A stretch of 64,000 nt of DNA from Hexactinellida sp. DTS-2022 (lineage: Eukaryota > Porifera > Hexactinellida), in NCBI GenBank assembly GCA_028753945.1, contig JAPNXP010000002.1:10416001-10480000 (forward strand). Direction: 5' to 3'. Made by a program: the position numbers and the translations under genes. The notes beneath the pieces were generated by a model. It was not told where the DNA came from. It saw only the letters and a program-made list of their open reading frames with translations, and ran no database searches. Below are positions 3,120-63,805 of the stretch, piece by piece. How positions within the stretch are numbered: the first letter of the stretch is position 1; each line of letters begins with the position of its first letter.

Positions 3120-3177
3120 GTTTAGATAATCAAAAATAATAAATAATCAACTTCTCATCTTTTCTGATCCTTGTCGA

Positions 3178-5493
3178 ATGGCATCTCTTGAAGAAACCTT
3201 CTCGCTAAATATCTCCTCATCCGATGATGAGTATCAGTCTCCACCGCAATACCGGACTGCAGCACTACCGGAGCTAAGCATACCCTCTCCATTCCAGTCA
3301 GAGGAATCATCCACCGATTTCGAGACTGGCAGTGGCAGAGAAACACCACTAACACCGGGAACTCCTCTTTCACCATTGGGGGCCGAGTTTTCCTTCCTCG
3401 GTGTTTCATCTCAGGCTTCGGAGGCCGGAGATTTTGCAACTCCTCGGCCTAGAAAGAAGCGCTACAGTAAGCGACGTACGCTTAACCTCAGAAAGTCTCT
3501 ATTTGGGACAACCGAGACTACAACAGATTGTCCGCCACCCAAGTTGTCTAAACGGACTAAGCTCTCCCGCCCTACATCTGATCTCTTCAGCCACATTCAA
3601 TTCCCACCTGTTCAAGAGCCTTATAGTGTCAAGATCGCTGAAGGTTGCGAATTAACAGAGACACAACTCCTCGTTCCACGTGGGAACCAAATCTTTAATC
3701 TGGAAATACTTTCGAATGTATTACACTCCTTTTGTGTCCAGATAAAACTTGCACAGGCAGGCCCCGCTTGCATCAGCACACTTCTAAAGACGGGTTACAG
3801 AGTAACTTTTTGTTAAAATGTTATGTCTCCCACACTGTTATCGCGGACCTCCCAGCTTCAGTCCCAATTGGTGCATCTCCCGATAATTGCATCAATAATC
3901 CGAGTGCACGCATTGGACACAGCGAGATTAACGCGCGGGCTCTCATCGCCGTACATTGCACTGCATCAAGTCTTCCCGGCTTACATGTAGTATCCTGGAT
4001 CTTGATGTTCCTTCTAAGGCAATGCACAAACATTCTATGGATAAATTTGTCGCCGCCTCCAAGGCAGTGGTTGAACGTTCAATGTACATCTCTGGACAAA
4101 AGGTCTACACGAACTCAGAACCTTCAGCAATGGTTGTGCCAGGATCACGTGAATGCATTGTTAGTTTCGATGCTTCCTGGCATAGGCGCGGTCACTTCTC
4201 AAATCAAGGCTTCGCGGCTGCGATTGATTCGGAAACCGGTAAAGTTCTCGATTATGCTCTCTATGAACGAGTTTGTATTTTGTGCTCTAAGTGGGACGAG
4301 GAACGGAAATCGAAGAATCCCGATGATTACGCCGATTTTTGGGAGGAACACAGGCTTAATTGCACCGCGAATTATAAGGGTAGTTCACAAGCCATGGAAA
4401 CCACAGCAGCATTGGATATTTGGAAGCGGTCCATAGCCAAACACCAGCTGGTGTATGGTACTTATATCGGAAATGGGGACTCTTCTTCGTTTCGTAACCT
4501 CACGAAATCCGACCCGTACAAAGGAGAAGTTGTTGTCAGGAAGGAGGAATGTCTGGGCCATGTTCAGAAGCGCGTGAAGAAGCATCTACTGAAGAAATCT
4601 ACCGAGTATAAAGGACTACCTGAGGTCAAGGCAAATCGGATTGCACATTTATACGCACTCGTTGTTGTGCAAAATTGTGGAAAAGAACCTGAAACTATTC
4701 GGCACGCGCTGAAAATCTTCTCCTCGAACACACTAGGGAGCAACACGACAACTGTCCTGTAGGCGAGTCTTCATGGTGTTAATACCAGAAACAGGTAGCT
4801 CGTTGTCTGAAAGACGATACTTTACCAGCGCCATACACCCGAGCTCCTTATTTGTTACCAAATGAGGATAAGCGAGCAAGAGAGGTGTTTTATATCTTTG
4901 CGTCCCTTCAATTCTGTGGCTCTATCACACTCGGAAAGACCCAGAATTCTAACGAGTCAATCCACTCAATGATATGGCATCACTCTCCGAAAGTGAATCG
5001 AGTTGGGCAGAAGTCCTTGATTGCTAGCACTGCGATGGCAGTCTTGAGCTTCAACGATGGATCGCTCGCATACGCTGCCTTGTTTAATGAACTCGGGATC
5101 ACTGTCAGCCACAACACCCTCCAGTTCCTCGCTCGACGCGATAAACGTCGTAATTTGCACCGTGAACGCCGCATAGTGGAGACGCATAAGCGAAGAAGGA
5201 GGCAGATGGCGACGCAAATTACCTCAGCTGAATCCTCTCGGAGGCGTCGGGACAAAGGAGCCGTCTACCAATCAGAACGTTTTGGTTCTGAAGTCCCACT
5301 TTCTGATGACGACTCGGACACAGAATGCCCCGTCTGTAATGAAAGAAATTGTCCCCTACCTCCAAAAAGGAAAAAGGAGTACTGGATTGCATGTCATAAA
5401 TGTGAAACATGGTTCCATTGGTCTTGTGCCGGGATAAAGACCAAGAAAGATGAACCAAAATATTATTTCTGTAGTAATTGTCACAGTGATTGA
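3178..5493 (+). pseudogene. Mutator-like (PF20700-type) transposase with C-terminal PHD finger
   Basis: A broken reading frame covers a whole DDE transposase of the animal Mutator-like group. The first part (3178-3735) is a Ser/Pro-rich and basic leader. A shift near 3735 leads into RLHQHTSKDGLQS...CINNPSARIGHSEINARAL, and a second shift near 3960-3990 leads into the catalytic core: IVSFDASWHRRGH (first Asp), YIGNGDSSSFRNL (second Asp) and, after another shift and a TAA near 4778, GKTQNSNESIHSMIWHHSP (Glu). The C-terminus has a basic RRRRQ tract and a PHD-type finger, CPVCNERNC...CHKCETWFHWSC...CSNC. The ATG lies about 60 bp downstream of a TATA box. With at least three frameshifts and a stop it cannot make an active enzyme. 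A paralogous fragment lies at 12765-13658. Confidence 0.85.
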
Positions 5494-12604: not shown

Positions 12605-14272
12605 TTAACGCTACCTACGACTACTATTTTCCCATTTTTCCAGAAAAAAAAATCTTTTGTTCTAAAGTTAACTTTTTGTTTATAGACACCTCTGCCAATT
12701 CCTAAGAAACTGGCAAAATCAGATTTATCATATTTGAATTTTTTGGCCACATAACTAGTCATAAACTCCAACCAGTGGGCTGGTTATTGTACAGAACAGG
12801 GGAAAGAGTCCTGAAGAAATACAAAAAGCTCTCTACGTCCTTGCCGATCACCTTGTTGAGAACCATGATAACTGTCCTCATACCAGAGATTCGTGGTGCT
12901 ATATGGGGAAGAATATTGCTGAAGTAAAGGATGACGACACAATTTCACCGGTGAATCTCCGGGCCCCATACCTCACGGCACCAGAACTGGCTCGCCTCTT
13001 GGATGTCTTTCAGAAGTTCGCGAGCATTGCTTTATGTTCCGCCGTAACCCTTGGCAAGACGCAGAACGCGAATGAATCTCTGCACTCCGTCCTATGGCAT
13101 AACGCGCCGAAAATCAAGCGTGTCGGCCAGAAGTCCCTCCAAGCCTCTGCAGCGCTGGCGGTCACCACTTTCAACGAGGGCTCTATGTCTCTGGCTAGCG
13201 TGCTTACCAACTTAGGAGTAGCCTGTTCACATAAGACCTTGCTCTATTTCGCGAGAAAGGACAAAGAACGCAACCGGTGTCGTATCAAAGCTGTCTCTGA
13301 AACCCAGAAGAGGAGACGAAGGTTACTCCAGTCCCAGTTTCTGACCGCAGAATCTTCCAGACGCAGGCGGGAAAAGGCTGGGGCAAAGTATAAGTCCAAA
13401 GCCTTTGGTAGTGAAGCTTCATCGAGCACCCCTGCGAAGAAAGCCGTTGCAAAAGCGTCCACTGGTGACGGATCAGACACCGTTTGCGAAGAGTGCCAGT
13501 TGCGAAATTGTCCGATCGGAAGAAAGCGGAAGACCGATGACTGGGTGTTTTGCGAATTCTGCGACCAGTGGTATCACGCTAGGTGCATGAAAGTGACCCT
13601 GAAGGAAGTAGGAGATGAACCATTCCAGTGTTTCGACTGTGAAGAGCAAGATCCTTAGATATATTTGTGTTAGTAACCTTAGATTGCATGTATTTGTCTT
13701 GAATTTGTCTTTCTTCCTCATTATCTCCAAATAAATTTAATGCAATACTGAATATGAGAGAATCTAGTGAACTCCGAAAGTATTTATAATAGAAACTATA
13801 AATTTGGGGGTTATGTAGTATACATATATATGTAAAACAATAGCAGAGCGTTTTCTAACTTTTTTATTAATTCAAATTGTTATAAGGCCAAGAATCCCAA
13901 AAAAGTACAAATTCCATACGTAATTGGACCTAATATATTAATATTCTAATTAACTAAATTAATTTTGACAAAATTGGAGATTTTGGCGGGTACCCGTATC
14001 GAACGCATATTGATTTGACGCGTTGCGAGTTAAAAGCAAAGTAATTCATGCTCTCGTCATTTTCTACTAGGAAAATCTCTTGCTTAGTTACTGTAGCAAC
14101 GGAAAGTATGTATTTACATATTTGTGTCAAAACTATTTTGAAAATCTATGATTTTTTTTATAAAATAATTACTATATAGTATGTTATAGGAACTGAAGCA
14201 CTAATTGAATTGAGTCCGTCAAGTCCTTTTTTTTAACCCATCACAAGCATTCTCAAGTAGTCGTAGGTAGCG
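12605..14272 (+). mobile_element. Deleted Mutator-like/PHD transposon nested in family A (1,668 bp)
   Basis: Inverted ends AACGCTACCTACGACTACT (left) and AGTAGTCGTAGGTAGCGTT (right) are flanked by TTAGC at 12600-12604 and 14273-14277. Family A copies at 1 kb and 43 kb have the uninterrupted sequence, which supports the insertion. It carries only the 3' third of a transposase gene. Its TIR differs from that of the 2012-6225 element although the proteins are clearly related. The exact duplication length (TTAGC or shorter) is ambiguous. Confidence 0.7.
12765..13658 (+). pseudogene. Mutator-like transposase, C-terminal part with PHD finger
   Basis: The frame is open from 12765 to the TAG ending at 13658. 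It begins with SGLVIVQNRGKSPEEIQKAL, continues with the conserved HDNCP...WCYMGK motif and the catalytic Glu block GKTQNANESLHSVLWHNAPK, then a basic RRRRL region and a PHD-type finger CEECQLRNC...CEFCDQWYHARC...CFDC. It lacks the domain with the two catalytic Asp residues. Compared with the 3178-5493 gene this part is uninterrupted, so it is younger or was deleted recently. Base composition is clearly more GC-rich than the flanks. The ATG at 12903 is internal to the domain and not a natural start. Confidence 0.85.
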
Positions 14273-18596: not shown

Positions 18597-21500
18597 TCAA
18601 GAGGTTCTAGACTTCTTTGCGCTCTTAACTTTACTGTCAGTTGTTCTGGGACGAGTTAGTTTCTTGAGATTTCGAGTAGTTTGCCTTTCTCTTGATAGTG
18701 ATACGACGGTAGAATTGAAATTTTTAACTTTATTGGCAATTATGCAGTTAGACGTGATGGTTAAAATTCGTTTAAGATAATCCCATCCAAAGAGGTTGCA
18801 ATTTGGCCATTTGTTTCTCCAATGTTCGCATTGAACATCTTATAGCGATTTTATTGAGAGGTTCACATGGATTTTTCTTGATGATCCAGCAGCGAATTGA
18901 AGAAGCAGATCATTATCCAACTCAATTACTCTAAATATTTTCCAAACTAATACTACAGCGTCTAGAACAACATCAGATGGCCACTTCAGATTTCCTCGAT
19001 CAATTAAATCTAAAATTTTGTATTTTGAATCCATAGGTTCGTCGAAATGAAGATATTTATCCTCTGTCAAATACATCATACAATTAGTGCAAGGACTAAG
19101 ATGCTTCCATAATTGCTAAACAGTATAACATCCTCCAATAAAGGCTAAAGACTGTAGAGATTCAGTATCCAGGAAAATATCAGACAATTTATGGATTACA
19201 GAAGAGTAAATATTGAAATCATATGGAGTATTGGTACATGTGTCAGGTTGAGTGTCATCAGTTGTCGCAGAAAATGAGCTTATAAAATTGGCCAAAGTTA
19301 ATTCATTTGAGTGTAGATTGGAAAATAAATTTAAGGTTCAGGTATACTCTACAAAATCCCAAAATTTCGATAAACCCCAAACTATGGTAAATCTCGTTTT
19401 TATTGCATTTTCGGATTGTGTGGATACCCATGTGGACTTTGACGAAATTTCAAAGAAAAATTCCAATTATTTCTCCAGTTTGACTCACTTCGAGTTTTGA
19501 AAGAAATATTGGGGTTCTGGTTTTGTTTGCCGGTTGCAGTATACCATGGAAACTTGATAATTTCGGTACATTGCCACATATAGGTTTTATCTTATATTTG
19601 GATAGAACAGCATATATCGCATCTTAATTTCAAATATTATGGAAGAATATTGAAAACTCTCAATAATACAGACTTTTTAGTGTCCTCTACCTAAGCCACT
19701 GCCATAGGGGACACTTTTTTTCAAACCTCGCTATCTCAAAACACAATTATTGCCATTGCGGAAGTCATATTATGACTCATATACCACCTAGAAACAAAAT
19801 CTCAACGGTTTTGGACAGATCTCAATTAGTTCTATCATATGAGTGTAGCGATTTCATTTGTAACTTTTATTTTTATTTTTATTTAATTTATTGATGATGA
19901 AAAAAGTGATGTCCACATTTATTGATGAAAAATTTGACTCATACGTGATTAAAAGAATTCTTGCACTCATATGATAGTTTAGGAGTTTCTTAATGCAATG
20001 CAGCAACAATCTACTCCTAATCATTAGCAGGAAAAAACCTATCCGTTCCGCAAAATACGATTTTCTAGAAAAAATAATTTTCACTGAGTTACCTAGTTCG
20101 AATATTATTGCATTTTTGCCGGTTAGAAGATGAAGTAAATCCGTTGTAAAAAATTTAATTAATTCGGGTAAATAGTTTTGGTAGAAGTGCTCTAGAGTAT
20201 ACCTGAACCTTAAGATAGTAGAGACCTTGAGCCGTCGCTCACTCTCGAGGACTTGGCAATAAGAAATGTGGTAGTTGGCTCCTGACATCATTCGATATAA
20301 ACCGAAATGATGTTCTAATGCGTCTGTTTGCAAAAAGTAACTCAAAAAGTAAGTGAATCCACATTCCTTTGTAAGATAATTAACTATTCTTGGTAACGCA
20401 AGACAGGAGTGCTTCATACTGGTAAACGTCTGAGGACTAAGTTTACCATCTTTTTCTGGAAGAGATTTCCAATGATCTAGCCAGTCAACTACTTTTCGCT
20501 AAAAAGTCAAAGCGAACGTCATTGTAGTAAATTGTTCGGAAAAATCATCATTGAGACGAATATTCTTGTTTGGCCTGTTAATATTAAAAAGTTGCCATAG
20601 TTGATTAATAACATCAATAAAATCTGATGTATGGGTCTGGAATATCTGACTACGGGATAAGTTCTGAATTATTATGGCCGAACTGGTGTATTCGCAAAAT
20701 ATTCTCAGAGCAAGGTTAACATTTTGTCGTTCAAAAGATGTCGGCCAGCAAGACTTTGCAATTAATCTAGGAGCCAGTTTGGCACATTTGTACTGCTCTT
20801 CCCTATACAAAAGCCGAATGTCCTCAAAAGAAGCCGTGTTCAATTGTTGAAGGTCATGAAAGTCTGGATACTTAAGTATTTTGTCATGGTTCTTGACGTT
20901 AAGCCAGTTATTATTAATATATTTTAAGATATGAACGAAGTCAAAGATTAATAACAAATTACGAGTGGAATCTAGCGGATGTGGTACAACAGGTTGGAGT
21001 GTGTGATCAGGAGATAATAGTTTAAAAAGGTTGACGTTCAGAGGATAGGCATCTGTACTTATTACTTGAACTGAGAGGTTACATTGTTCGATATCATTTA
21101 TCACGGATTGAACTATAGGGAATAATTGTTGTGCAGAAGAACTACCTAGCGGTAAAAGTCGAATTATTGTAGACCATTTTTTAAACAAGCTAGATACCAT
21201 AATGGAGAAAACGGTCCTTCTCGGGTCATTCGGATCAAGAGAACCTCCAATAATTTGTCCAGCCTTGTAAGTAAGATCAGACTTTACATGAATCTCATCC
21301 ATTTGCAAAAATACATTCTTTTCTTGAAGTTTAAAGTTTGCAGTTGCTTGCATAAAAAATGTAGTAAACTCATTATCCAACCCGAATGAAGAATACAGTT
21401 TTTGGATCGTATTGAAATGGGGTAGAGCGATACATTCAAGGGACTGTAGGAAGTTATAACATGTTGAAGATATGAGGTGGGCTTTAAGGGCAATGATTTG

Positions 21501-22400
21501 AGTAATTGTATTATATCTGCGCCTATTCTTCTGAATGCATAGATTTCGGAGTTGGCAAACTATAAATTGGAGCGAAGGAAGAAAAGGAGCATCATTGGAT
21601 ATATCAACGATGTCTTCCTTTGAGTGGTCTTCAATACTAGATATCGTATTATTAAGAAGAGCAGTGGCTTCAGCTATCATATCTCTAGGTTGGGATATCT
21701 TTCTGGAAGACGAGATATTGTATTAACTAATTCTGTAAGCAGAGTTTCGATTTGCCTGACATCAGAAATGCAGTCGATCCCTAAGGATATTTAATTGGAC
21801 TGGGAGAAACCTCGTGCTGTCAACGTAGAGTCAATGATCAAAGCTGCTTCTACGCTAATAACTCCCTCTGATTTATATGGATAAATGAAGTTTACCATAT
21901 CTTCTTGTAACCACACATGCCAAGGATCAGGATAGTTAGAATTTATTTTCTCCTTCAGGTCAGAAAAACTATCGAAATCAAACAATTTGCCTTCTGTATC
22001 TTTTGTTTCGAGACTAAGATTACGAGCGATAATAAATAATTCTTCTTCCTTAGTTTCATGTGAGAAACGAGATGCTCGCGATGTCTGCGTAGAAGATAAA
22101 TAGCTAGGACAGCCAGGAAGAAGTGAAGGTATAGCACCTTTAACTAAAAGAGGTCTGTCTCGTTTGAGGTACTTGATTTCTACGCCGTCATTAATTCTAA
22201 ACGTATAGTCAATGTCTTGTTCGAGGAAATGCTTCATACACACAAAGAATGTCTTAGGAGGATTAAGATGTTCTCTGTGTAACGCGTTTAGCCAAGCTTG
22301 ACGTGAATTCTGGGTCTTCGGGAGATTTGAATACGGGTGTATACGCATCATTCGGATAGTAGTTGCTTTTACATCCAGGAGCCCAGCATTTGTTTGGCAT
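18597..22400 (-). pseudogene. P-element transposase with THAP domain
   Basis: The start is the ATG at 22400, giving MPNKCWAPGC, the first Cys pair of a THAP finger; a frameshift leads into AWLNALHRE...FVCMKHF, which supplies the C-x2-H half (C2CH). The RNase H-like core contains QMDEIHVKSDLTYKAGQIIG, KWSTIIRLLPLG, STDAYPLNVNLFKLLSP, VPHPLDSTRNLL and FDFVHILKYINNNWLN; the C-terminal block has TDALEHHFGLYRMMSGANYH. Defects are a TAA near 21788, a frameshift near 21685, an in-frame TAG near 20497 and the 875-bp family B insertion. Removing that insertion and one TTAA restores an uninterrupted frame across the site. The C-terminus (18597-19079) matches 63395-63805 of the second copy. THAP9 and Drosophila P are the characterised relatives. 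Confidence 0.85.
19335..20209. mobile_element. Family B TTAA element, copy 2 (875 bp)
   Basis: Same 17-bp inverted ends and same length as the copy at 10777-11651, with TTAA at 19331-19334 and 20210-20213. It interrupts the P transposase gene, so it is younger than that P element. Confidence 0.9.
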
Positions 22401-22752
22401 ACTCTCACTCAATCACTCGATGTAGATATGAACCAAAAATATCTAATATATATTGAAAATGAAGAATAGGTTAGAACAGGTACAAAAGATTGGCAAAAGC
22501 ATACATATGGAAGAAGAAAATTCGTTGTAAAGTAAAATATAATGAAAATATTCTGTTATGTAGTAACACAAAATTCGCAAATATTAATTATGGTTGTGTT
22601 TTATCCTATAATATTAATAATTGTATACCCATAATAAATTGCAAGTAAAGTAGTCTTAGATGGCGCTAAATATGATATGACTTCTAGTCCATCCTTGGTT
22701 ACAATTATTCCTTCAGTTGTTGGGCCATATATAGAGTAGGCTATGCTTGCAC

Positions 22753-25078: not shown

Positions 25079-25956
25079 GAGGGGTTTAGATAAATCATTT
25101 TGATTATTTTATTTTCAAATCAAATCAATGATTTATGATTGATCTTTGGGTAACATTCAATGATTTGATGATTGATTTTTTCTATTTCATTTTTAGAATG
25201 ATTTGATTTTGATTGATTTGTGAAAAGTTAATGATTTGATTTTTATTTGAAAATCAAATCATTTTTCTGCTCTGTATAATATTATTAACCCAGATTTATG
25301 TTATATTTGCTTCCACATCAGGAGGTTATAGTAGTATGAACACGTTAAATACAATTGCGGGTCTATGTGCATTTTATCGTTTACTTCACCCCCGTTTGAA
25401 ACTACAATCACTCAGCTAAATCGAAACGCAAGTTTTACCAGGAACAACCCATTACCAATAGTCTTAGATTGCTCCGGTTTAATGGGTGAAATATACTAAC
25501 GTATACGTATACTATTACTATCGACTCCGCTTATTAGTCTCCTCGGAATGAGATATTTTGACCTATTAATAGGTACATCTGAAAAGGATTACTAATTTAT
25601 AGTAACATGTATTTGTATTTCCCAGGTCCAAATAACCAAAGTGATTTGTTATTATAGCTATTATCTTGATTAAGATTCTTCGATCACCTATAAAAAATCT
25701 GTTATTGTGTGTACATTAGTATTCGGCTAAAAGAATATCTTCGGGACTCGGGAGTAACAAAAAAACTAATTATATCATCGTAATTGGAAATGATTTGATT
25801 TTGATTTTTGATGATTTTGTGGTGAATCAAAATGATTTGATGATTGATTTTTTCAATCTCACATTTTGAATGATTTGATTTTGATTGATTTTTACAACAC
25901 TAATTTTTGAATGATTTTGATTTAAAATCAAAATCAATGATTTATGTAAAGCCCTG
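25079..25956. mobile_element. hAT-type MITE in the minisatellite (878 bp)
   Basis: The right tip, read inward, is CAGGGCTTTACATAAATCA; the left tip is GAGGGGTTTAGATAAATCA. An 8-bp duplication GTCCTAAC lies at 23919-23926 and 25957-25964. The left duplication is separated from the element because the Transib-type MITE later inserted across the junction. Interior sequence is dense in ATGATTTGATTTTGATT motifs, typical of hAT subterminal repeats. Confidence 0.8.
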
Positions 25957-26432
25957 GTCCTAACCCCAATTGGTTTACTCGCCTTAATTTTTTCCGGTCC
26001 TAACTCCAATTGGTTTACTCGCCTTAAATTTTTTTCGGTCCTAACCCCAATTGGTTTACTCGCCTTAATTTTATTTCCGGTCCTATCCCCAATTGGTTTA
26101 CTGCCTTAATTTTTTTTTCGGTCCTAACCCCAATTGGTTTACTCGCCTTAATTTTTTCCGGTTCTAACCCCAATTGGTTTACTTGCCTTAATTTTTTATT
26201 CGGTCCTAACCCCAATTGGTTTACTCGCCTGAATTTTTTTTCGGTCCTAACCCCAATTGGTTTACTCGCCTTAATTTTTTTCCGGTCCTAACTCCAATTG
26301 GTTTAACGCCTTAAATTTTTTTCGGTCCTAACCCCAATTGGTTTACTCGCCTTAATTTTATTTCCGGTCCTATCCCCAATTGGTTTACTCGCCTTAATTT
26401 TTTTTTCGGTCCTAAGCCCAATTGGTTTACTC
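25957..26432. repeat. Minisatellite, segment 2
   Basis: About eleven further units of the ~41-bp repeat. The last five bases, TACTC, are the left target duplication of the Transib element. Confidence 0.9.
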
Positions 26433-29400
26433 CACAGTGGTCAAAATCTTGTATTCATAGGAAATTGGTATTTGGATGCATGCTAGACCAATAATTTGTA
26501 TTAATGACCTATAGTATATCACCCATGAGAAATTCATTAAGCCAAAAATTTTTGATATGGCTTCTATTTCGTGAGATTTGATGACGTAGCATTTTTCTAT
26601 ATTTTGTAATTCCTTAAAAAATCGCAGTAAATTGTAATAACAATAGGTTATAATGGGGATAATTATATTATATTCTACACATTATCTAACTATTAAGCAA
26701 CTAAATAATACAAATTTTGTTGAGGAAACTACATTATGAGCATGCTATCAAAGAGTTCTTGATTTTTCGAATTCGCCTGTGAGTACTTTTTAGCAATTTC
26801 CTCCCAATTCGCTTCCTTTGGTAGAATGAGAAGTAATCTGACTGAGAAGTAAGACGGATGAAGATATCTTGTATATTTGCTTCGAAGGAGAATTTTCTAG
26901 CCAATTGTTCGCGATATCGTCTGATGTGCTTATGGCACGCCTCTAAACCTTCTTCTGACAAAGATTTCAGACCTCTCCCCCCATTATAATCTTCAATCAA
27001 TTGAGCGCTATGAGCCAACACCTTATGTAACGTTGGGGTAATACTCGCCCAAGGAAAAGTATCTATTATGAGTTCGTAAGTGTCACTACACAGTGTTGCG
27101 AATTTTTCGTGGTCTATTCGCTCATCAGAGTTAAATATGCGCAAGACTACAGCTGTAGATAACTGTAAGAGATTGGTGGAACTCACAAGGAATCAATGTT
27201 AAGATCCAATAAAAGAAGTCTTTGTTGCTATCGTTAACAGGTTGGAAACAAGTTCGAACCACATTTCCTGTAGAGGTTGTACCACCCTGATTAGTGGGAA
27301 AATCGATTCGAACGTTTATTTTTTCCCATAGTAAACCACGAACAAATTCCATCGAATGGCGAATCTTTGGTGAAGATGGTACCCATTTCTTCTCTCCAGC
27401 TTGTATGTGGTACACTAACTGCATGAACCATCCGAATACTCTCAGATAGCCATGTAGAGGTGAAGCAGATAAGATGTTTTCCTCTGATAGAGGCTTGTGT
27501 GTCATTCCAAATCTTTCATTACTTGGAAGAGAGAAAAAATCGTCTTCATCGACCTCAGCGAATATCTCAATCGCAGAATCGATTGAGCGGTTAATGGGAA
27601 AACCCTGTTTTATTAATTCAATATCCTTCAATTGATTTCGTGTGCACGTGCACAAGTGACATGGTGCTCCTCCGGCTCCGTCAAGGATAGCTGCCATCTT
27701 TGTATCAAACAAACACCTAGTGATATTGACATTAACTTTTCCAGCCTTTAGCTGTATTCCTGTTGTTTGTAAAAGTTTAATCTCAAATTAATTGTAATAT
27801 CCATTAAAAATTTCACATTTTCTTCGCTTTCAGCTAAAGCCATTAATGCTACAGGTCTCATAGCGAAAGGTGAATTAGGAGAGGGATTTGTCCAGATAAT
27901 ATTTTCAAAGGAATCTTTGATCCAGATTACTTTGAACGCAAATAGGAGAAAGTTTTTAGTGGTAATATCTGGGTGGTTTCTTAATTGGTTGTATATTGAG
28001 TGTGATCCAGATCCGTCTAACCCATCACTAAGTTTGGCTGTTAAAGGATAATTAACATCTTGCAGTGATCTCTCAGCCTCAATTATTTGAGAAATAGTTT
28101 GTGTGGCGATTGACTGATAAGAATGGTAAATGCCAACTGGCGTACCGAAACCTTTGTCAAAATAGCGCAGTTCATTGACCAAACAAGTATCTTGACGAAA
28201 TTTTGCCACTTTGTTATAAGAAGAAATTAAGATTTGTTCGTCTTTTAAAAAACGCCTGAGTTCTCTGTACTTCTGTTTCCCAATAGAGAAGAAATCTAAT
28301 AAGAATGAGGAATTTCTTTCAAACATTATTGTGTTGTGTTTTCTGTAAGTTCCCTTCAGAACTATTTCCTTGCACACTTCGATAGTACCAGTATCCTTGT
28401 CTTCGTTGGCAAACAACTGAAGACACAAAGAAGCGATTGTCTTCGTTGTAACTCCCTCAATCTCCGCTATTGACTTGATGTGTGATAATAATGACTGTAG
28501 GCGGGTTCTAACATGTTTGATGTTTAAGTTTGTAAGAGAAGTTCGAATTTCTTTGTTAGCATCAACTTCGAAAACAAGTTGTTGCATAGGAATATCTAAG
28601 GAGGCCGATGACTTTCGTTTCTTTGATGCCAGACCCTCTGATACATCATAAAAGTGAAGTTCTTCCCAAGTGAGTAAATCGTAGTTTTTAACGAATGTTC
28701 TTCTGATCTCCTTGAGTTCTCGTAACTTGGAGCGAATGGTATTCAATTCAGTTTCAGGATATTGGTGTTCATTTATTATACGTTCAGATTCGGCACGGGT
28801 ATTGTTGTTGCATGCTTCGAGAATGTTGAGAGATTGAAGATTATTCATTGTTCAATTCAAATTGATATTATGGAAAATACAAATATTATATATATTTTAA
28901 TTTTAAGTCAACCACATGGATCCCATTAATTTAAATTTTCCTAAATTGAAAGGGGTTTTTGTAGGCAGAGACCTTAGATCGGATGGGAATGTTTTTAGTC
29001 ACGTTCAGTCACTTAGCAACCAAGTGCATTTGATAGAGAATTTTCTCTAGTTTAATGAAAAGTGACTAAAATTTCTACCCAAAACAGGCCAAAGAAGTCC
29101 GGAAAGTAAATATGGAAAATAAATATATATAAAATTATTCTAGAGTGGGATTGATAAAATGTATGCTCATCTGAAACCATAGGGAGTTGAGTTATAATTA
29201 TTATTTTTGTATTGATCTACGATAAAAATTGATTCGAATAAGCTTATGATAGCGCATATATGCTGCATTTATATTGTTAGAAATACTATGAAACCTGATA
29301 GCATAATAGCAACACTTACAATCGCTTGGAATTCGTATATGATGACTGCTACTAAAATTAAAATATTTTCACTACCAATTGGAATGTGGTAAAAGTAATT

Positions 29401-29503
29401 ACATTTCTTTGATCCTTAGGTATCTTAGAAATAGATAATATATCAATTTCACGCATACAGTTGCATGAAAAATAATGCTATTTCTACTGGTTTGCCCACT
29501 GTG
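26433..29503 (-). mobile_element. Transib/RAG1-like transposon (3,071 bp)
   Basis: The left end CACAGTGGTCAAA and the right end, read inward, CACAGTGGGCAAA are flanked by TACTC at 26428-26432 and 29504-29508. The CACAGTG tip and the 5-bp duplication match Transib and RAG-type transposons. The only gene is a RAG1-like transposase on the minus strand (26734-28848); I find no second gene, so no RAG2-like partner. The element interrupts the minisatellite, which resumes at 29504. Confidence 0.9.
26734..28848 (-). pseudogene. Transib/RAG1-like DDE transposase
   Basis: Three minus-strand frames in series (366, 193 and 150 aa) cover about 700 residues, the usual Transib size. The first Asp is D275 in AKLSDGLDGSGSHSIYNQ (position of RAG1 D600), followed by WTNPSPNSPFAMRPVALM. 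The second frame starts FDTKMAAILDGAGGAPCHLC, where the Asp corresponds to RAG1 D708 and CHLC to its zinc-binding CxxC. The third has TPTLHKVLAHSAQLIE (the HxxxxH zinc ligands) and LKSLSEEGLEACHKHIRRYR with the Glu equivalent to E962. The frames are joined by two shifts, near 27765 and near 27190, and there are no introns. It would act in the nucleus on the CACAGTG ends. Two single-base errors could reflect recent death or sequencing error. Confidence 0.9.
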
Positions 29504-29680
29504 TACTCGCCTTAATTTTTTTTCCGGTCCTAACCCCAATGGGTTTAGTGGCCTTAATTTTTTTCCGGTCCTAACCCCAATTGGTTTACTGGCCTTAATT
29601 TTTTTTTTCGGTACTACCCCGATTGGTTTACTCGCTTTCGAGGTTTTCTCGCTCATACCCCAATTGGTTTACTCGTCGTA
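29504..29680. repeat. Minisatellite, segment 3
   Basis: About four decayed units of the same ~41-bp repeat; the first bases TACTC are the right target duplication of the Transib element. Confidence 0.85.
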
Positions 29681-36998: not shown

Positions 36999-39900
36999 CT
37001 AATTTATATTTATGTATGATTTGATCAATAGTACCTGTGATGTGTCGACACCTATGCTCGAATCGAGGTTTACTTTCTTCTTAGTGTTTCTTACAAAATA
37101 AGGACGTGTGATATGGATTGGAATTTTCTTGTCTTTTTTGGCTCCTAATTCTGTCTGAGAAATAGTAACATGACTATCTGTTACTTTAGACACCGTGTAA
37201 GGCCCAATATATTTTGATTGCTTCTTCGTTTGGGTAAGTGTTTTATCTATGGCATGTTAGTGTATATTATCTTATCATCCATCTTCAGAGAGGCACTACA
37301 GATGTCATAATGATAATAAAATGTGAGTAAGAAAACATTGTTGAATTTATAAAGCTCAACTAACCGTCCTTCGTTGACCTTCTTATCATACTGCATCTTC
37401 TGTTTTATTTGCTCAAAGTTGATACTATCCATTGCTGATTGCTGTGTAGAAGTACGAGATTCATCAATACCAGTAACTTCTTCTTGGGGAATGTCAAGTG
37501 GTGGAGAAAAGATGTCTGATATTTCTTCAATATCATCGAGTGGAGGAATGAATTCGCTCATAATAGCATCATCTATTGCAAAATCTTCTTCAGTGTTGCA
37601 CTGCAGGTTGTTAATGGTCGATAGAAGATCTTGATGCCTGGACTCTCTTCCCACATAACCTTGAATGGAGTTTGTCCATGGGACCTTTTAAAGGTAGAAT
37701 TCATTGTTATTGCAGCAGCTTTTAGAAGATTTGTCCAATGATCCCCAGTCTGGATCTCCATTTTGTTCAGTTTACTAAAAAAGTACTTTCATAGTTGGTA
37801 TATTATCCTAAATCATGCATTCGAAATGTTGTTATCATTTACTAGTTAACTAATAACACTACCTTTTGAGAATCTTATTGTGTGCTTCGACTAAACTGTT
37901 AGCCATCGGGTGGTATGCACAAGTGCTACGTTTTTCAACTTCTAATTTCCGGTGAAATTCCTTAAATATCTATGAATAATACAAGCAAAATTACTATCGA
38001 ATACGTACTAATATTATAAAAAATACATATTTAGCAATATATTCTGATAATATTTGATTAGAATGTAGAAAAATTATTATGCAACTCACATTACTTGTAA
38101 ACTCCCTCCCTTGGTCGTGCTGAATAATATCGGGTAATCCCATATCGAGGTAGATATCCTTAAGATTCTGGATTACTTCTTCTGATGTCTTCGACTTGAG
38201 AGCGCGCACTGCAACGTATTTGCTCAGATAACAAACAGTGACTAAGATGTGTTTATATCCATCTTTGCTCTCAGAGAAATCACATATAAGGTCCATCCCT
38301 ATATGTTTCCACGTTTTAGATGGAGGTGGGATTGGTTGGAGCTTCTTTTGCGGTTGTGGTGGCAAGGCCGCTGTCATCTGACATGTATGGCAAGTCCTTT
38401 CCTTTAGTATACAAGAAAGAAATTATAATATGGCATTTTTTAATAATTTTGTATTAGTTGCAGCATCGATATCTAATTACACCATTATATAAAATTCGTA
38501 AATGGTTGATTAAAGTTAACTGAACATTATAAAAATAAATATAAAAACAATTTGGGATCTTGCGAAATCATGTTAGTTGCTATTAGTCGTCAAAATAAAA
38601 TGCTTTACTAATTAGACAATCTAGAACTTTAGGGTAATCTGTATTGATATTCGGGCGTTCACGGTGAATCTCAGAATTGCATAATTTACTACTAGGAATA
38701 CTCTAGATGAGATAGAGATTGACTTCTATGATTTTTTTTTTCTTAATTTTCAATCAAGATGGTGTTTTTAATAAAATAAGACGTCGACTTCCTTATATGG
38801 GCATGACATTTTTTCAAAAATTGTTGAATCTTTTTGAATTTTTGAACATATTATTATGAGACTATTTCCTCTCAGTAATAATTTTTATTTTAATTATTTT
38901 TGTAGAAGAAACGATGCTAAAGGGCATTTTTTCAAAATAATCATAAAACGCAGTCGTGCACTAAACTATCGTTATAAAATGTTAGAAGAAAATTTTTTCA
39001 ATTCTAGTTCAAGGGTCTGAGGATGTATCATGTATTACCCCAGAGAAATTTTTTGACTTTCTGATAATTATTTTTGGTTTTATAAGCATTCTAAGGCTGC
39101 GGCCCACGAATTTTTCCGAATTTCAACATCAAAAGAGGTGATAAAATTCTAGACTGCCATATATTGTTCCCAAAATTAAAAAATTCGGAATCTACAGGTC
39201 AAAATATACAGGTTCACGTCAAAAAGTTCAGGAATATGTCAAAAATTAGGAAATTAGGGGCATAAAAGAATATGAAGGGTATGCAAGTACCCGGTGATCA
39301 TATATTACTGTGGGAAATTGGAAATCAGAATAATTCTGTTATTCTTCATAAAAATGCGCCAGCTTCTTATCTATGCGTAGCATTTGTTTTCAACACTTTT
39401 ACAATAATATATCATGAGTTATGACCAATTTATGACTATGGTTTTGTCTGTTTTGTCATATTTTCACACCTCAAGGCCCTCAAATATACAATAATGTATT
39501 ATATAAAACACCAATTTGGTAATACAAATAGGGAAATAGCATTTGCGCACAAAATGAGACGTTACACAACACGATCCAATCATTATTCGATAAGTTATGG
39601 ACTTTTGGGCCACAGAAGGGGGCAAAAAATCTGACATTCCACACCTGTTGATATTTCAGAAACGCTTTGAGATAAAATGATCATAGGCATTAGAAAATAC
39701 TGTAAATACCTGACTTTCTATACGTTTATAATACATTTTAGGTCTCTAGGTGTCACACTTTTTAACATGACCATATATGGTAATTTGATGTGCCCAATTT
39801 TGATGACGAAGCAAATTTTGTAACTCTTGATCTCTGGACAGCAGAGACTAGCTCTAAAATTCTAGTCACATCATGATACTATTTCTTACTCATTGGATAA

Positions 39901-43522: not shown

Positions 43523-44749
43523 GACTACAGGGATCCCTGTACGATTGGCAGTTATGAATATGGTTTCTAGAACTCTATTTTTCACCGAAAGCTTTGATAT
43601 AAACGAAGTTATGTGAAATTTATTGAATTACGTTTTAGAGCTCCATAGGCGGTACATAGTTTTATTATTATGGATTCATTCTTGAATTTAATTTTATACA
43701 CTTTATTATGCCAAAACAACTTCTTCATGGTTAGATCAAAATTACTTTTCCACGCGAGAGTTGAATTACGATTTTGGTCTTCAGTATTTTTGCATCGTTC
43801 CTAAATAATGTCGTGACCTTCGTTATATAAGGCCAATTCACGACTTTAAAAATTGGACCATGGATGAGTTCGAAGTCCATTGGAAAATAGAGGATACTTT
43901 TTATCTCGATTATTAGTAATGGTAGACCTGAAATATAACTTGCAACTTTATGGGAACATCCGAACATGATATCAAGGTATATGTACATTGCACCTCTCAA
44001 AATTGTTATATGTCATCATTTGATAGTGTAATTGTCAATTTTCGCGCGAATTATATTGTTTTTATCCTGCTTTAACAATATCTGTTGCATCAAGTAAAGT
44101 AGTATGTTCTAAACATTTTATAGGTCTGAATTGCTTGCAAAATTTAGTACTAGTAGTAATGATTAATCACTGTAATTTTTAGAGTTATACCTATCATATT
44201 TAATGTAGAAAGAATTCAGTAAATTCTGATGCTATACTGTTACTGACATGGAAGCCAAAAGTCAAGTTATGTAACTACAAGCTAAAAATAGAACCAAACA
44301 AGCTTTAGAAGTTTGCTTATAATCTTAGTTGGTGAATTACAATTTATGTTTCACCTCTAACACTTAACTTTTCACATTATTGGTTAAACTACCCATACCA
44401 CTAATGCACTTTTCGAAGCAAGCATCCTTAAGCCACCAAATCTTGCCTTTGGTTGCTGGACTAATCTACCATATATTGTGGATTATTGACTTTATGTACA
44501 TTATATGTTTCGTTGCATCATTTGTTATTAACATTAGTGTTGTTTTACGGCATCAAAACTTTGTTAAGTTATCAGTGGTTGGCTTAACCGGCCGTTTTTT
44601 TTTTATTTAGCCACCAGTGAGGTGGTGGCTTAATTAGCCACCATAAAAATGTTATTTTGTCGAGCACTGATGCTGTATGACCTGAAAAATTGCAAAAAAT
44701 TGTTTTGAAAATCGCTGGATTAAGTATCCACATCAGCCATTTCAAATGC

Positions 44750-44752
<3 letters not shown>
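43523..44752. repeat. Unassigned; diverged family F arm
   Basis: About 43800-44080 resembles the family F terminal arm (attggaccatggatgagttc, attatattgtttttatcctg). The sequence near 44600-44645 contains an inverted agccaccagtgaggtggtggct. No gene. Confidence 0.4.
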
Positions 44753-44782
<30 letters not shown>

Positions 44783-44802
44783 CATACATACGTATACATA
44801 CA

Positions 44803-44836
<34 letters not shown>

Positions 44837-45076
44837 CATACATACATACATACATACATACATACATACATACATACATACATACATACATACATACATA
44901 CATACATACATACATACATACATACATACATACATACATACATACATACATACATACATACATACATACATACATACATACATACATACATACATACATA
45001 CATACATACATACATACATACATACATACATACATACATACATACATACATACATACATACATACATACATACATA
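44753..45076. repeat. (TACA)n microsatellite, array 1
   Basis: About 81 tetranucleotide copies with very few interruptions (near 44791 and 44831). All long frames here are artefacts of the repeat. Confidence 0.98.
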
Positions 45077-45460
45077 GGCGTAAGGTTTGCCAATGTGGGG
45101 GGGGGCCGGCCCCCCCACTTAGTAAGTTAGGAAATATAGTCCGAAGTGTTTTTTGAAATAATGATTCAAACAGTCTAATATTGTTAATACAGTAGATGTC
45201 GGATATAAGCACCTCGTCGGGAACTGCTTTGAATGTGCTTATAACCGACATGTTCTTATAACCAACATAAATTATATAGGGGTACCGTTGGTTTAGTAGT
45301 AAGTATTGACCAATATTCTATTGTTGAGAAATAAATCAAATATATCTAGTATTGCATTGGAAATACTGAAGTTATAAATTTGTGGGAGAAGGTAGCACGT
45401 TTTTTGAGGTAGAGATTGCCCCCCCCCCACTTTCTAAAAATACCCCCAAAACTTTACGCC
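45077..45460. mobile_element. Small TIR element inside the TACA array (384 bp)
   Basis: Ends GGCGTAAGGTTT and AAACTTTACGCC are inverted, each flanked by TA, with G and C homopolymers just inside. It separates two TACA arrays. A pogo-like tip (CAGTAGATGTCGGATATAAG) occurs inside at 45190. No coding capacity. Confidence 0.6.
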
Positions 45461-60927: not shown

Positions 60928-63805
60928 ATGCCGAACTGTTCTGCCCCCGTTTGTAGGGGTAAATCCGGGTAATTATACCCCAGAAGACGCGTCCCAGTTT
61001 TTAAACTTCCTGATGGTCCACCCCTGAGTTACGACATGCCTGGATACGTGCTCTCCATCGTGAGGATATTTCTGACCTCAAAATGGTGTATGTGTGTGCT
61101 AAGCATTTTCCGAAGGAAGATATTCAATATTTTCACACGGTACCCAGAGGAGATGGCACATCCTATGAGGTCCCGCGAGGAAGACCCAAATTAAATCCTG
61201 GCGCTGCCCCCTCTCTCCTTCCTGGTTGTCCGTCTTATTATTCCTCTACCCCTTCAATTAGAATCAAACGAACTCGGTTCTCTTACGACTCCAAAGAGGA
61301 AGATTTATTGAACCAAGCAACTAATCTCAGCTTGAGATCAGAGAATACAGAAATGGAGAAGTTTCGTGTTGGTTGTATACAAGAAATACGAGATAAGTTA
61401 GCTTTGGTAACAATCCCAACTGACTGGTTAGTTGGGATTCAAACAGATAATTGTGTGAGATTTTTTTGCCTAAGATTGAAAATAATAATATTTGTGCAGA
61501 TGTTTCTCTTGAAATATATTCTTTTTTATCTGTGAACGGATATATAATATTATATATATGGGAGGAGTCCATTTCTCTCTCACTTATCTCTATCACTGAT
61601 ATCCGACAAATTGAAACGATGTTTACAGAGATTACTCTGAAACTTAGCTCTTCCCCTCAGAAGAAACATCCTCACCATATCTCTAAAGCAAAAGAACATA
61701 TTGAGGAGGCCATATGTAATCTATTAGATAGTGATGAAACAGAATCCAATTGTTCCGATTTGCCAAGATTACAATTTATTCTTGGCCAACTAGAGAATGT
61801 GGGTATTTACAAGAAGAGAAGGAGATATAATGGTCTTACACAAATTCTGGCCATAAAAATGCATCTGGTTTCTCCTGCTAGTTACAAATTCTCCAAAGTT
61901 CAGAATGCATTTCTTTTCCACATGTTCGTACACTAGAAAGTTGTACTCTTCTTTTGGGCTGGAAAACGACTCCTGTACTTACCATAGCCAGGTAACCTCT
62001 TCTTTAAGTTCTCAAGAGAAGAATGTAATTATTCAGATGGATGAGATCCACGTTAACTTAAGTCTGAGGGGTGGGAAGGGTGGGAAAATATTTGGTCCTA
62101 ACTTATCCCCTGAATACCCCAAAAGAACTGTATTTGCTATCATGGTTTCTAGTTTACACAAAAAATGGTCCTGTATTCCTCGTTTGATACCTTGCGCATC
62201 TATATCTGCTGAATACCTTTCCTATAATTAAGTCTTGTATTTTGGATATCGAATCTTGCGGTTTGAAAGTACAGATTATTTCTACCGACAATTACCCTTT
62301 AAACGTGAACTTATTCAAGTTATTTTCTCCAACTAAACAGTTAGAGACTAGTGTACCACACCCTTCTGATAATAAAAGAAAACTCTATGTTACTTTCGAC
62401 TTTGTGCACATTTTGAAAAGTATTCGAAACAACTGGTTGAATCAGAAAGATATTCGGAAAACCTTTCACTTTCCCAACTTTCAGAACATTAAGCTGGATT
62501 ACTGTGTGTATCCTGTTCAAGTTTACTCTGCATCTTTTAGTGATGTGCGTCTCCTCTATAATTTAGAGAAAGAATCCTTAGCTAAGTTAGCACCTAGCTT
62601 GACTATCAAAGCTTGTTATCCTTCTGCTATTGAGCGCCAAAATATGAAACTTGTTTTGAAAGTATTCAACGAATTAACTGTTGCGGCTCTGAAGTTACTG
62701 AATGAACTCAGTAACCAAGAAGACCGAAACAATACACACGACTTTGTTGAAATGCTTCTTCAAATTTGGAAACTTTTCAACATAAATTCCCCACTTAAAG
62801 GCAAACGTTTGAATGATGATATCTCAAGAGCTCTAACATACCAGGACGAACGATTTTCATTCTTAGCTTGTGTTGTTATTTGGTTGGAGACTTGGCTGGC
62901 TTTTCCATGAAATGTAGGAAAGTTAAGTAAACAAACGTTTACCAGTTTTAAACATGCTTGCACTGTATTGCCTCAGATAACTAACCATTTAACTGGATTT
63001 TGTGGATTTAACTATCTTTTGACATCCTTTTACAGACAGATCCATTGGAACATCACGTTGTCCTATATCGTATGATGTCATGTTCAAACTATCATGTCTC
63101 GTATCTTCAAATCCTTGAAACTGAACGCCGCCTCTAGTTATCCAACATATTAAAGATTTTTGCTTCACAACAAGATTGTGGCTTATATTCAATTCAGAGA
63201 TTTATTGATTCATACTCATCCTTTGGCACGAATAATGGCGATGAAATCGATGTCCAACTAGTCTGGGATGAAATTGATGATCTAACTTCCATTGAATGTA
63301 GTTTACAGACTCAACACTCATTAGCTTTTCTTGCTGGTTATGCAGTACATAAATATATTTTTAAAACTCAGCCATGTCATGTTTGCATTGATCTTTGACC
63401 ATTGACAAAGACTTTATCTTTAATGAAGATTCACAACCCGAGTTCAGGCTTTTGCAATTAACTGACCGTGGTGTCCTAAAGTATCCATCTGAGTTTATCC
63501 TCGAATCTATAGTAACTTTATGGAAGACGTTAATTACAATTGAAAGCAAAGAAAACTTGTTGGCGATATTGATGCAAGGATCATCCAGAAAAATTATTGT
63601 GGAAGTAACCTTGATATTCTTAGAAGGGAATGATGCGATTGCTAAATTGAGTTGCATTTCTTGTGGTGTCTCCATTTTGACTATCCTAAAAAATCTTATT
63701 TTAACTTGCGCCAACTGTTTGCTAGCTAACAAGGTTAATAATTATAACTCCGCTGTTGCAACTAAAGGAATAGAAAAGCGAAAACTAAAGAAGTTCTCAC
63801 ATTAA
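60928..63805 (+). pseudogene. P-element transposase with THAP domain, second copy
   Basis: ATG at 60928 gives MPNCSAPVCRGKSG, then a TAA; in another frame AWIRALHREDISDLK and VYVCAKHFPKEDI complete the C2CH THAP finger. Conserved core blocks are IIQMDEIHVNLSLRGGKGGK, KRTVFAIMVSSLHKKWSC, ISTDNYPLNVNLFKLFSP, FDFVHILKSIRNNWLN and LEHH-VLYRMMSCSNYH. The C-terminus reads LKYPSEFILESIVTLWKTL to KLKKFSH and a TAA. Frame breaks lie near 60970, 61450, 61905, 62230, 62908, 63040 and 63390, so it is more decayed than the copy at 18597-22400, which it parallels block by block. Confidence 0.85.

Follow-up and report, generated by a model that had tools for sequence, protein, structure and literature searches.

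How paired recombination signals of unequal spacing originated is the question raised by a transposon that couples one RAG1-like gene with tips identical to the vertebrate V(D)J heptamer. It lies in a 64,000-nucleotide stretch (the window) of contig JAPNXP010000002.1 of the sponge Hexactinellida sp. DTS-2022, positions 10,416,001 to 10,480,000. A preliminary description, made from the letters alone, had read it as a RAG1-only system of the Transib/RAG kind; the observation itself is confirmed here, and the interpretation is partly supported. It is proposed, with a probability of roughly 0.8, that the element is a degenerate Transib copy in which the N-terminal domain of the transposase reads a second block at both ends, and that a short and a long end are paired without RAG2.

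The element in the window and its target site

The features of the locus are as follows, in positions of the window.

25956..26432, no strand: 41-bp tandem array, low side, the insertion target
26428..26432, no strand: target site duplication TACTC, low side
26433..29503, minus: whole transposon, 3071 bp
26433..26439, plus: heptamer CACAGTG of the 3' TIR
26459..26468, plus: second block of the 3' TIR, AGGAAATTGG, 26 bases from the tip
26485..26505, plus: degenerate copy of the subterminal 3' box AGACCTATNAAATGTATTATT
26734..27192, minus: transposase piece 3, with the zinc-binding His and the catalytic Glu (codon 26941-26943), without a C-terminal CCHC tail
27131..27787, minus: transposase piece 2, with the second catalytic Asp (codon 27704-27706) and the CxxC of the zinc-binding domain
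27748..28848, minus: transposase piece 1, with the N-terminus, the nonamer-binding-like domain and the first catalytic Asp (codon 28015-28017)
28345..28554, minus: nonamer-binding-domain-like segment, about residues 99-168 (best PDB match of profile A3, 3gna)
29477..29486, minus: second block of the 5' TIR, TAGAAATAGC, 17 bases from the tip
29497..29503, minus: heptamer CACAGTG of the 5' TIR
29504..29508, no strand: target site duplication TACTC, high side
29504..29675, no strand: 41-bp tandem array continued, high side

The ends are inverted CACAGTGG...CAAA. Since the transposase is encoded on the minus strand, the low end holds the 3' TIR and the high end the 5' TIR. The inverted ends recognised earlier are real, the tips CACAGTGGTCAAA and CACAGTGGGCAAA being identical at 12 of 13 positions, and both carry the vertebrate heptamer exactly. 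So is the TACTC duplication: if a single TACTC is kept between the two flanks, the array word GGTTTACTCGCC is regained, of which the window has exactly 12 further copies on the same strand, and the remaining 41-bp units display the empty site as it was before insertion. The gene described at first sight as one is indeed single, but it is not intact; it is split into three minus-strand frames (28848-27748, 27787-27131 and 27192-26734) by two frameshifts, and the copy is therefore dead. No RAG2-like frame is present in the element, as had been stated: the longest stop-to-stop frame outside the transposase frames has 92 aa and is antisense, and beyond the span of these frames the longest has 84 aa, with none of RAG2L size. 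The copy is 96% identical to L012 over a 2593-position alignment and 88% identical to L011 over 3102 positions. We conclude that 26433-29503 is a degenerate autonomous Transib-superfamily cut-and-paste copy from a large old radiation in the host genome.

A large family and its heptamer

When the host genome (112.4 Mb in 18 contigs) was searched with residues 1-366 (the first half) of the transposase and 112 of 539 candidates were scored, at least 116 match rows resulted, two from some copies; 13 of the 116 rows have a frame of at least 700 aa without a stop. A 3'-end pattern matched 253 genome places at up to two mismatches and its reversed control none. A scan for exact heptamer ends paired 2.3-4.2 kb apart, without use of the flanks, covered 36 sequences (L010-L044 and the window excerpt; L001-L009, repeats of these or single ends, were set aside) and returned 21 pairs, in which some loci overlap and the L012/L016 pair counts twice. 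The 5-bp duplication recurs across these copies, with identical flanks in 14 of the 21 pairs against 0 of 420 shifted controls. In four of the seven misses (L012, L016, L023 position 109, window 27089) the heptamer scored is not the one at the tip of the element itself; the others are L033 without a duplication, L037 with one of 6 bp, and L043, matching at four of five positions. Three full copies on three contigs (L020, L022 and L023) are 99.1-99.3% identical and have the different duplications CATGG, AAATG and TAGTA, so transposition has been recent; the frames of L022 and L023 are uninterrupted, that of L020 is broken. In all four pairs of uninterrupted frames compared, dN is 0.24-0.45 and dS is not estimable, which is read as saturation together with long purifying selection. 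Non-autonomous copies of 1.1-1.5 kb also exist: six of 30 loci (L045, L046, L066, L070, L071 and L073) have a partner end and an identical 5-bp flank within 1.5 kb, one end of L046 and one of L070 reading CACAATG.

Heptamer conservation, put forward as a check at the first inspection, holds in part. The word CACAGTGG stands at every one of the 26 ends of 13 complete, non-redundant elements, which were selected by the heptamer (three near-duplicates were removed from 16), whereas altered tips occur in L004 and L011 (CACAGTTG), at the other end of L011 (TACAGTGG) and in L008 (CACATTGG). A subfamily with CACAGTG-TGG suggests that the constant part is seven bases, not eight. A heptamer-blind test used the subterminal box AGACCTATNAAATGTATTATT, which has 414 genome places at up to two mismatches and one in the reversed control: at 20 sites hand-picked among the first 100 listed, CACAGTG lay within two bases of its expected place in nine, and the other 11 belong to other repeats. 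Boxes such as AGACATATGAAATGTATTATT also occur in L076, L081, L083-L090 and L095, repeats in which the heptamer is missing at the expected place; some of them carry the box at both ends, about 2-3 kb apart.

These data bear on whether the family is a Chapaev or another CAC-ended CMC element, an outcome that the preliminary description had named as fatal to its view, together with true ends lying elsewhere in other copies. Chapaev tips also read CAC...GTG according to passages of PMC4079192; however, the duplications here are 5 bp rather than the Chapaev-type 3-4 bp given there, and the catalytic core matches HzTransib and RAG1 (see below), which leaves a Chapaev origin with almost no likelihood. 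Other copies terminate at the same heptamer, both those selected by that word and nine of the 20 box sites selected without it.

The transposase and its domains

The RAG1-like catalytic blocks noted earlier are substantiated, all three RAG1/Transib catalytic residues being present in the window transposase. A profile built from ten family proteins with uninterrupted frames matched HzTransib in the PDB at 4.3e-45, BbRAG1L at 6.5e-20 and RAG1 at 6e-15, and Pfam RAG1 was matched by all ten (best 6.6e-8); piece 3 of the window copy reaches 8.5e-5 and 21.3 bits, below the 25-bit cut-off. Residues D269, D373 and E626 (L021 numbering) align with D126, D225 and E436, the catalytic residues reported for HzTransib in the text of PMC6941560 that bears on them, once a uniform chain offset of 17, calculated manually on the profile alignment, is applied. 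The triad and the CxxC/HxxxxH zinc ligands are invariant in the ten proteins. The two zinc half-sites lie about 48 residues apart and align with BbRAG1L and RAG1, against 13 residues in HzTransib. A CCHC tail of the form CX2CX3GHX5C is present in five of the ten proteins (two of them, L021 and L023, 99% identical) and absent from the window lineage; zf-CCHC scored below cut-off in three of the ten, in agreement with the tail seen by eye. L028 has an uninterrupted frame whose last ~80 residues are unlike those of its close relatives L029 and L035, and its tail, to judge from that comparison, is probably frameshifted. The bases adjacent to the heptamer seemed as if they might go with the CCHC tail, but the pattern was not clean and no link is claimed.

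A 76-residue N-terminal profile (A3; ten family rows, the window row included) has the RAG1 nonamer-binding domain (NBD) 3gna as its best PDB match (E 8.6e-5); the first 16 PDB rows are RAG1 and the next, a non-RAG1 chain, scores 0.26, the segment having been picked after the ten-protein profile had aligned the same stretch to RAG1. Pfam scans of this segment alone gave no RAG1 match, the best being DeaD_dimer at 0.00065 in three of ten, below cut-off. DeaD_dimer, PH_SLA1, SQS_PSY and other Pfam matches, like NCBIfam APH, are below their cut-offs and were taken as chance.

Classification

The family belongs to the Transib superfamily, is RAG1-only and stands close to the published Subgroup I Transibs, not to RAGL transposons or Chapaev. 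It has the RAG1-like DDE core with an aligned triad, 5-bp duplications, RSS-heptamer-like CAC termini and, in the window element, a single gene without a RAG2-like partner. The RAG1-like core of the preliminary description thus stands and is best read as Transib: in unrooted trees with long branches and only three outside references (HzTransib, BbRAG1L and mouse RAG1), BbRAG1L and mouse RAG1 form a clade (100/100) apart from the family and HzTransib. HzTransib (6pqn; passages of PMC6941560 and PMC1852546) shares the DDE core, the 5-bp duplication and the single gene, and differs in its 489-aa protein, its shorter zinc-domain spacing and its TIRs, reported as symmetric in an excerpt of PMC8289069.

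Subgroup I Transibs, as portrayed in portions of Tao et al. 2022 (PMC9435367), share with the family the RAG1-only constitution, asymmetric paired TIRs (here an offset of 9-10 between ends in 15 of 16 families), a nonamer-binding-like domain and the alpha11-alpha12 region of the zinc-binding domain (here about 48 residues), and some members here also keep the CCHC tail. The likeness in the TIRs is to the asymmetry described in that text, not to block spacing. Unlike Subgroup I, whose CTT1 reads CX2CX3GHX4C, the window lineage and five of the ten proteins have no such tail and the other five have X5C instead of X4C; because its lineage lacks CTT1, the window element is not called a Subgroup I member, although it resembles Subgroup I in its TIRs and its zinc domain.

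Another derivation would be from a RAGL transposon (RAG1L+RAG2L) after loss of RAG2L. The kept zinc-binding insertion, which RAG1 uses for RAG2 and HzTransib lacks, would suit such an origin, as would the CTT1-like tail in half of the proteins and the second lineage L096, which alone matches BbRAG1L at 1.6e-21 (L021, 9e-8). The clade of BbRAG1L and RAG1 apart from the family argues against it, as do the identities of the ten rows, 19-24% to BbRAG1L/RAG1 versus 24-28% to HzTransib, and the presence of insertion and tail in Subgroup I Transibs too, in the same portions of PMC9435367; we regard loss of RAG2L as very unlikely. A genome search with PF03089 (RAG2) gave no match, but its controls were equally silent, so that it carries no weight on RAG2 outside the element. 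No prokaryotic or viral relatives appeared in GTDB and IMG/VR scans with the family alignments, whose narrow patterns do not bear on the 'bacterial Transib' of Tao 2022, and tblastn with one protein found none in plasmids and phages.

L096 (1125-3209) is itself a deeper RAG1/Transib-like lineage of the same genome, whose uninterrupted frame of 695 aa shares 26-31% identity with the family rows. Downstream it has the CACAGTGG word with GTGGAAATAGG at 26, a matching 3' end; a 5' tip was sought without success in the 1.1 kb upstream, and no duplication was found.

A second block at unequal distances from the two ends

Nonamer-like blocks inside the tips, for which the preliminary description advised a search, were found, one per end. 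Each block is about 10 bp long. At the 5' end, the one nearer the start codon, it starts ~17 bases in from the tip, and at the 3' end 26 bases in; its consensus, about NGGAANTAGG, differs from the vertebrate nonamer. When the 5' and 3' ends of each element were compared, the best shared register outside the tip was a shift of 9. The mean within-element match at positions 14/23 is 7.5/10 in the 13 non-redundant elements, against a maximum of 4.8 over all registers in 60 shuffles, and the mean of own pairings at 17/26 (6.85) exceeds all 727 between-element pairings (maximum 6.08). An element's own 3' block is its best or tied best partner in 10 of 14 elements. Sixteen families were scored for offset, the 13 elements and three more, with further near-copies left out: offset 9 is among the best in 12 (the window's tie counted) and 9 or 10 in 15, while 200 shuffles gave a mean of 1.0 and a maximum of 4. 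The exception is L044, with a best offset of -1. In the window copy the within-element match is weak (7/11), offset 9 tying with offsets 2 and 10. In a plain identity scan offset 9 ranks top at 0.386, with offset 0 near it at 0.379.

It might be argued that this is a plain Transib in which only the first 13-15 bp function and the second block is a leftover from one ancestral end. Positions 8-17 do match between the ends at zero offset (mean 6.2/10), and for protostome RAGL, recognition has been proposed on about 15-17 bp in an excerpt of PMC7204232. The block, however, is conserved at the shifted register, and the likeness between the two blocks of an element persists over families whose transposases mostly share only 42-46% identity with L021, so we consider a leftover unlikely.

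An exploratory test of co-variation between block and N-terminal domain

Block distance follows NBD distance (Mantel r 0.59, p 0.0002, 14 elements) more closely than the rest of the N-terminal half (r 0.51) or the catalytic region (r 0.40). Once the rest of the N-terminal half is accounted for, the NBD retains a partial r of 0.38 (p 0.011); controlling for the NBD, the rest retains 0.20 (p 0.077). The partial Mantel test on 14 related elements is permissive and its significance can be overstated; seven of the 14 rows come from broken proteins read across the breaks (L020, L029, L032, L033, L036, L037 and the window), and block positions were set by hand for three elements. The bases adjacent to the heptamer follow the rest (0.43) and the catalytic region (0.40) more than the NBD (0.28). 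As an exploratory result, the pattern fits a division of labour in which the core reads the tip and the NBD reads the block. No report of such co-variation was met in the literature surveyed, a scope outside which most subscription papers fall, so absence of a report is not proven.

Could the block instead be a host-factor site or promoter element that the transposase does not bind? The neighbouring box AGACCTATNAAATGTATTATT occurs in the heptamer-less repeats listed above, so part of the sequence near the ends is not peculiar to this transposon family. In contrast to the box, the block is found at both ends, varies between families and follows the N-terminal domain best, and a host role for it appears slightly more doubtful than its being a leftover.

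Our preferred reading is thus that the N-terminal domain, homologous to the NBD of RAG1, would read the second block at both ends. By analogy with RAG1 and HzTransib, the transposase would cut at the CACAGTG tips with its DDE core, leaving hairpins on the flanks, and would insert with a 5-bp stagger. The 3' block lies ~9 bp further in, slightly less than a helical turn, so that a short end may be paired with a long one, a 12/23-like rule working without RAG2.

Comparison with known recombination signals and significance

The closest geometry is that of AanRAGL from the alga Aureococcus, described in portions of PMC9435367 with a 13-bp element, 4/13-bp spacers and a 10-bp second element, which places the second element 17 and 26 bases from the tips as in the family; AanRAGL differs in carrying RAG2L and in its elements, CACACCCAAACCT and CCTCAA[C/T]A[C/T]G. 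Vertebrate RSS and RAG1 share the heptamer, the NBD and the use of two spacings, and differ in the 12/23-bp spacers (a difference of 11, not 9), the nonamer ACAAAAACC and the RAG2 partner (passages of PMC8289069), the family having neither 12/23 spacing nor the vertebrate nonamer. ProtoRAG of the lancelet shares asymmetric bipartite TIRs and the 5-bp duplication, and differs in the heptamer CACTATG, 27/31-bp spacers and the presence of RAG2L, according to the same passages.

Several elements of this picture have precedents. The exact heptamer had been thought closer than is typical of Transib tips, a view that does not hold, since two reviews, in the parts concerned, give some Transib ends as identical to the vertebrate consensus and also describe ends with 12/23 asymmetry (PMC6941560, PMC8355894); asymmetric TIRs in RAG2-less Subgroup I Transibs are published as well (portions of PMC9435367). 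What is added here is the size of the radiation and an exploratory link from block to domain with no RAG2 gene found. Passages of PMC8355894 state that RAG1 by itself is weak and does not favour 12/23, and suggest that the 12/23 preference depends on vertebrate RAG2. In the radiation described here, an end difference of 9-10 bp in 15 of 16 families goes together with a RAG1-type NBD and with blocks that tend to change with that domain, no RAG2 gene having been found. Many matched signal-enzyme pairs, several of them uninterrupted, lie in one genome, so that 'asymmetry precedes RAG2' becomes directly testable, and the family offers a natural test bed for the start of the spacing rule without RAG2. 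A tentative extension, to which we give somewhat less than even odds, is that a RAG2-independent '12/23 rule' operates in a living radiation with family-matched block and domain, and that 17/26 may be ancestral to vertebrate 12/23. If so, one NBD-bearing protein pairs short-spaced and long-spaced CACAGTG signals, and the spacing rule, whose geometry is common to the algal RAGL transposon, would predate RAG2.

Other features of the window

The window carries further transposon-like sequences. A Mutator-like transposase (PF20700) followed by a PHD finger occupies 3130-5493, and a second PHD-bearing fragment 12765-13658; Mutator-like matches cluster on the contig to which the window belongs, whose 15.6 Mb make up 14% of the genome and carry about 81 of the 146 rows, counted by hand. 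At 20502-22408 a THAP domain precedes a TNP-like RNase H transposase, and the frame at 61014-62910 is similar to it by eye. An integrase core (rve) fragment at 37997-38422 scores 30.5 bits, below the 32.6-bit cut-off, and at about 44700-45130 a long four-base repeat gives rise to HTYI-type frames.
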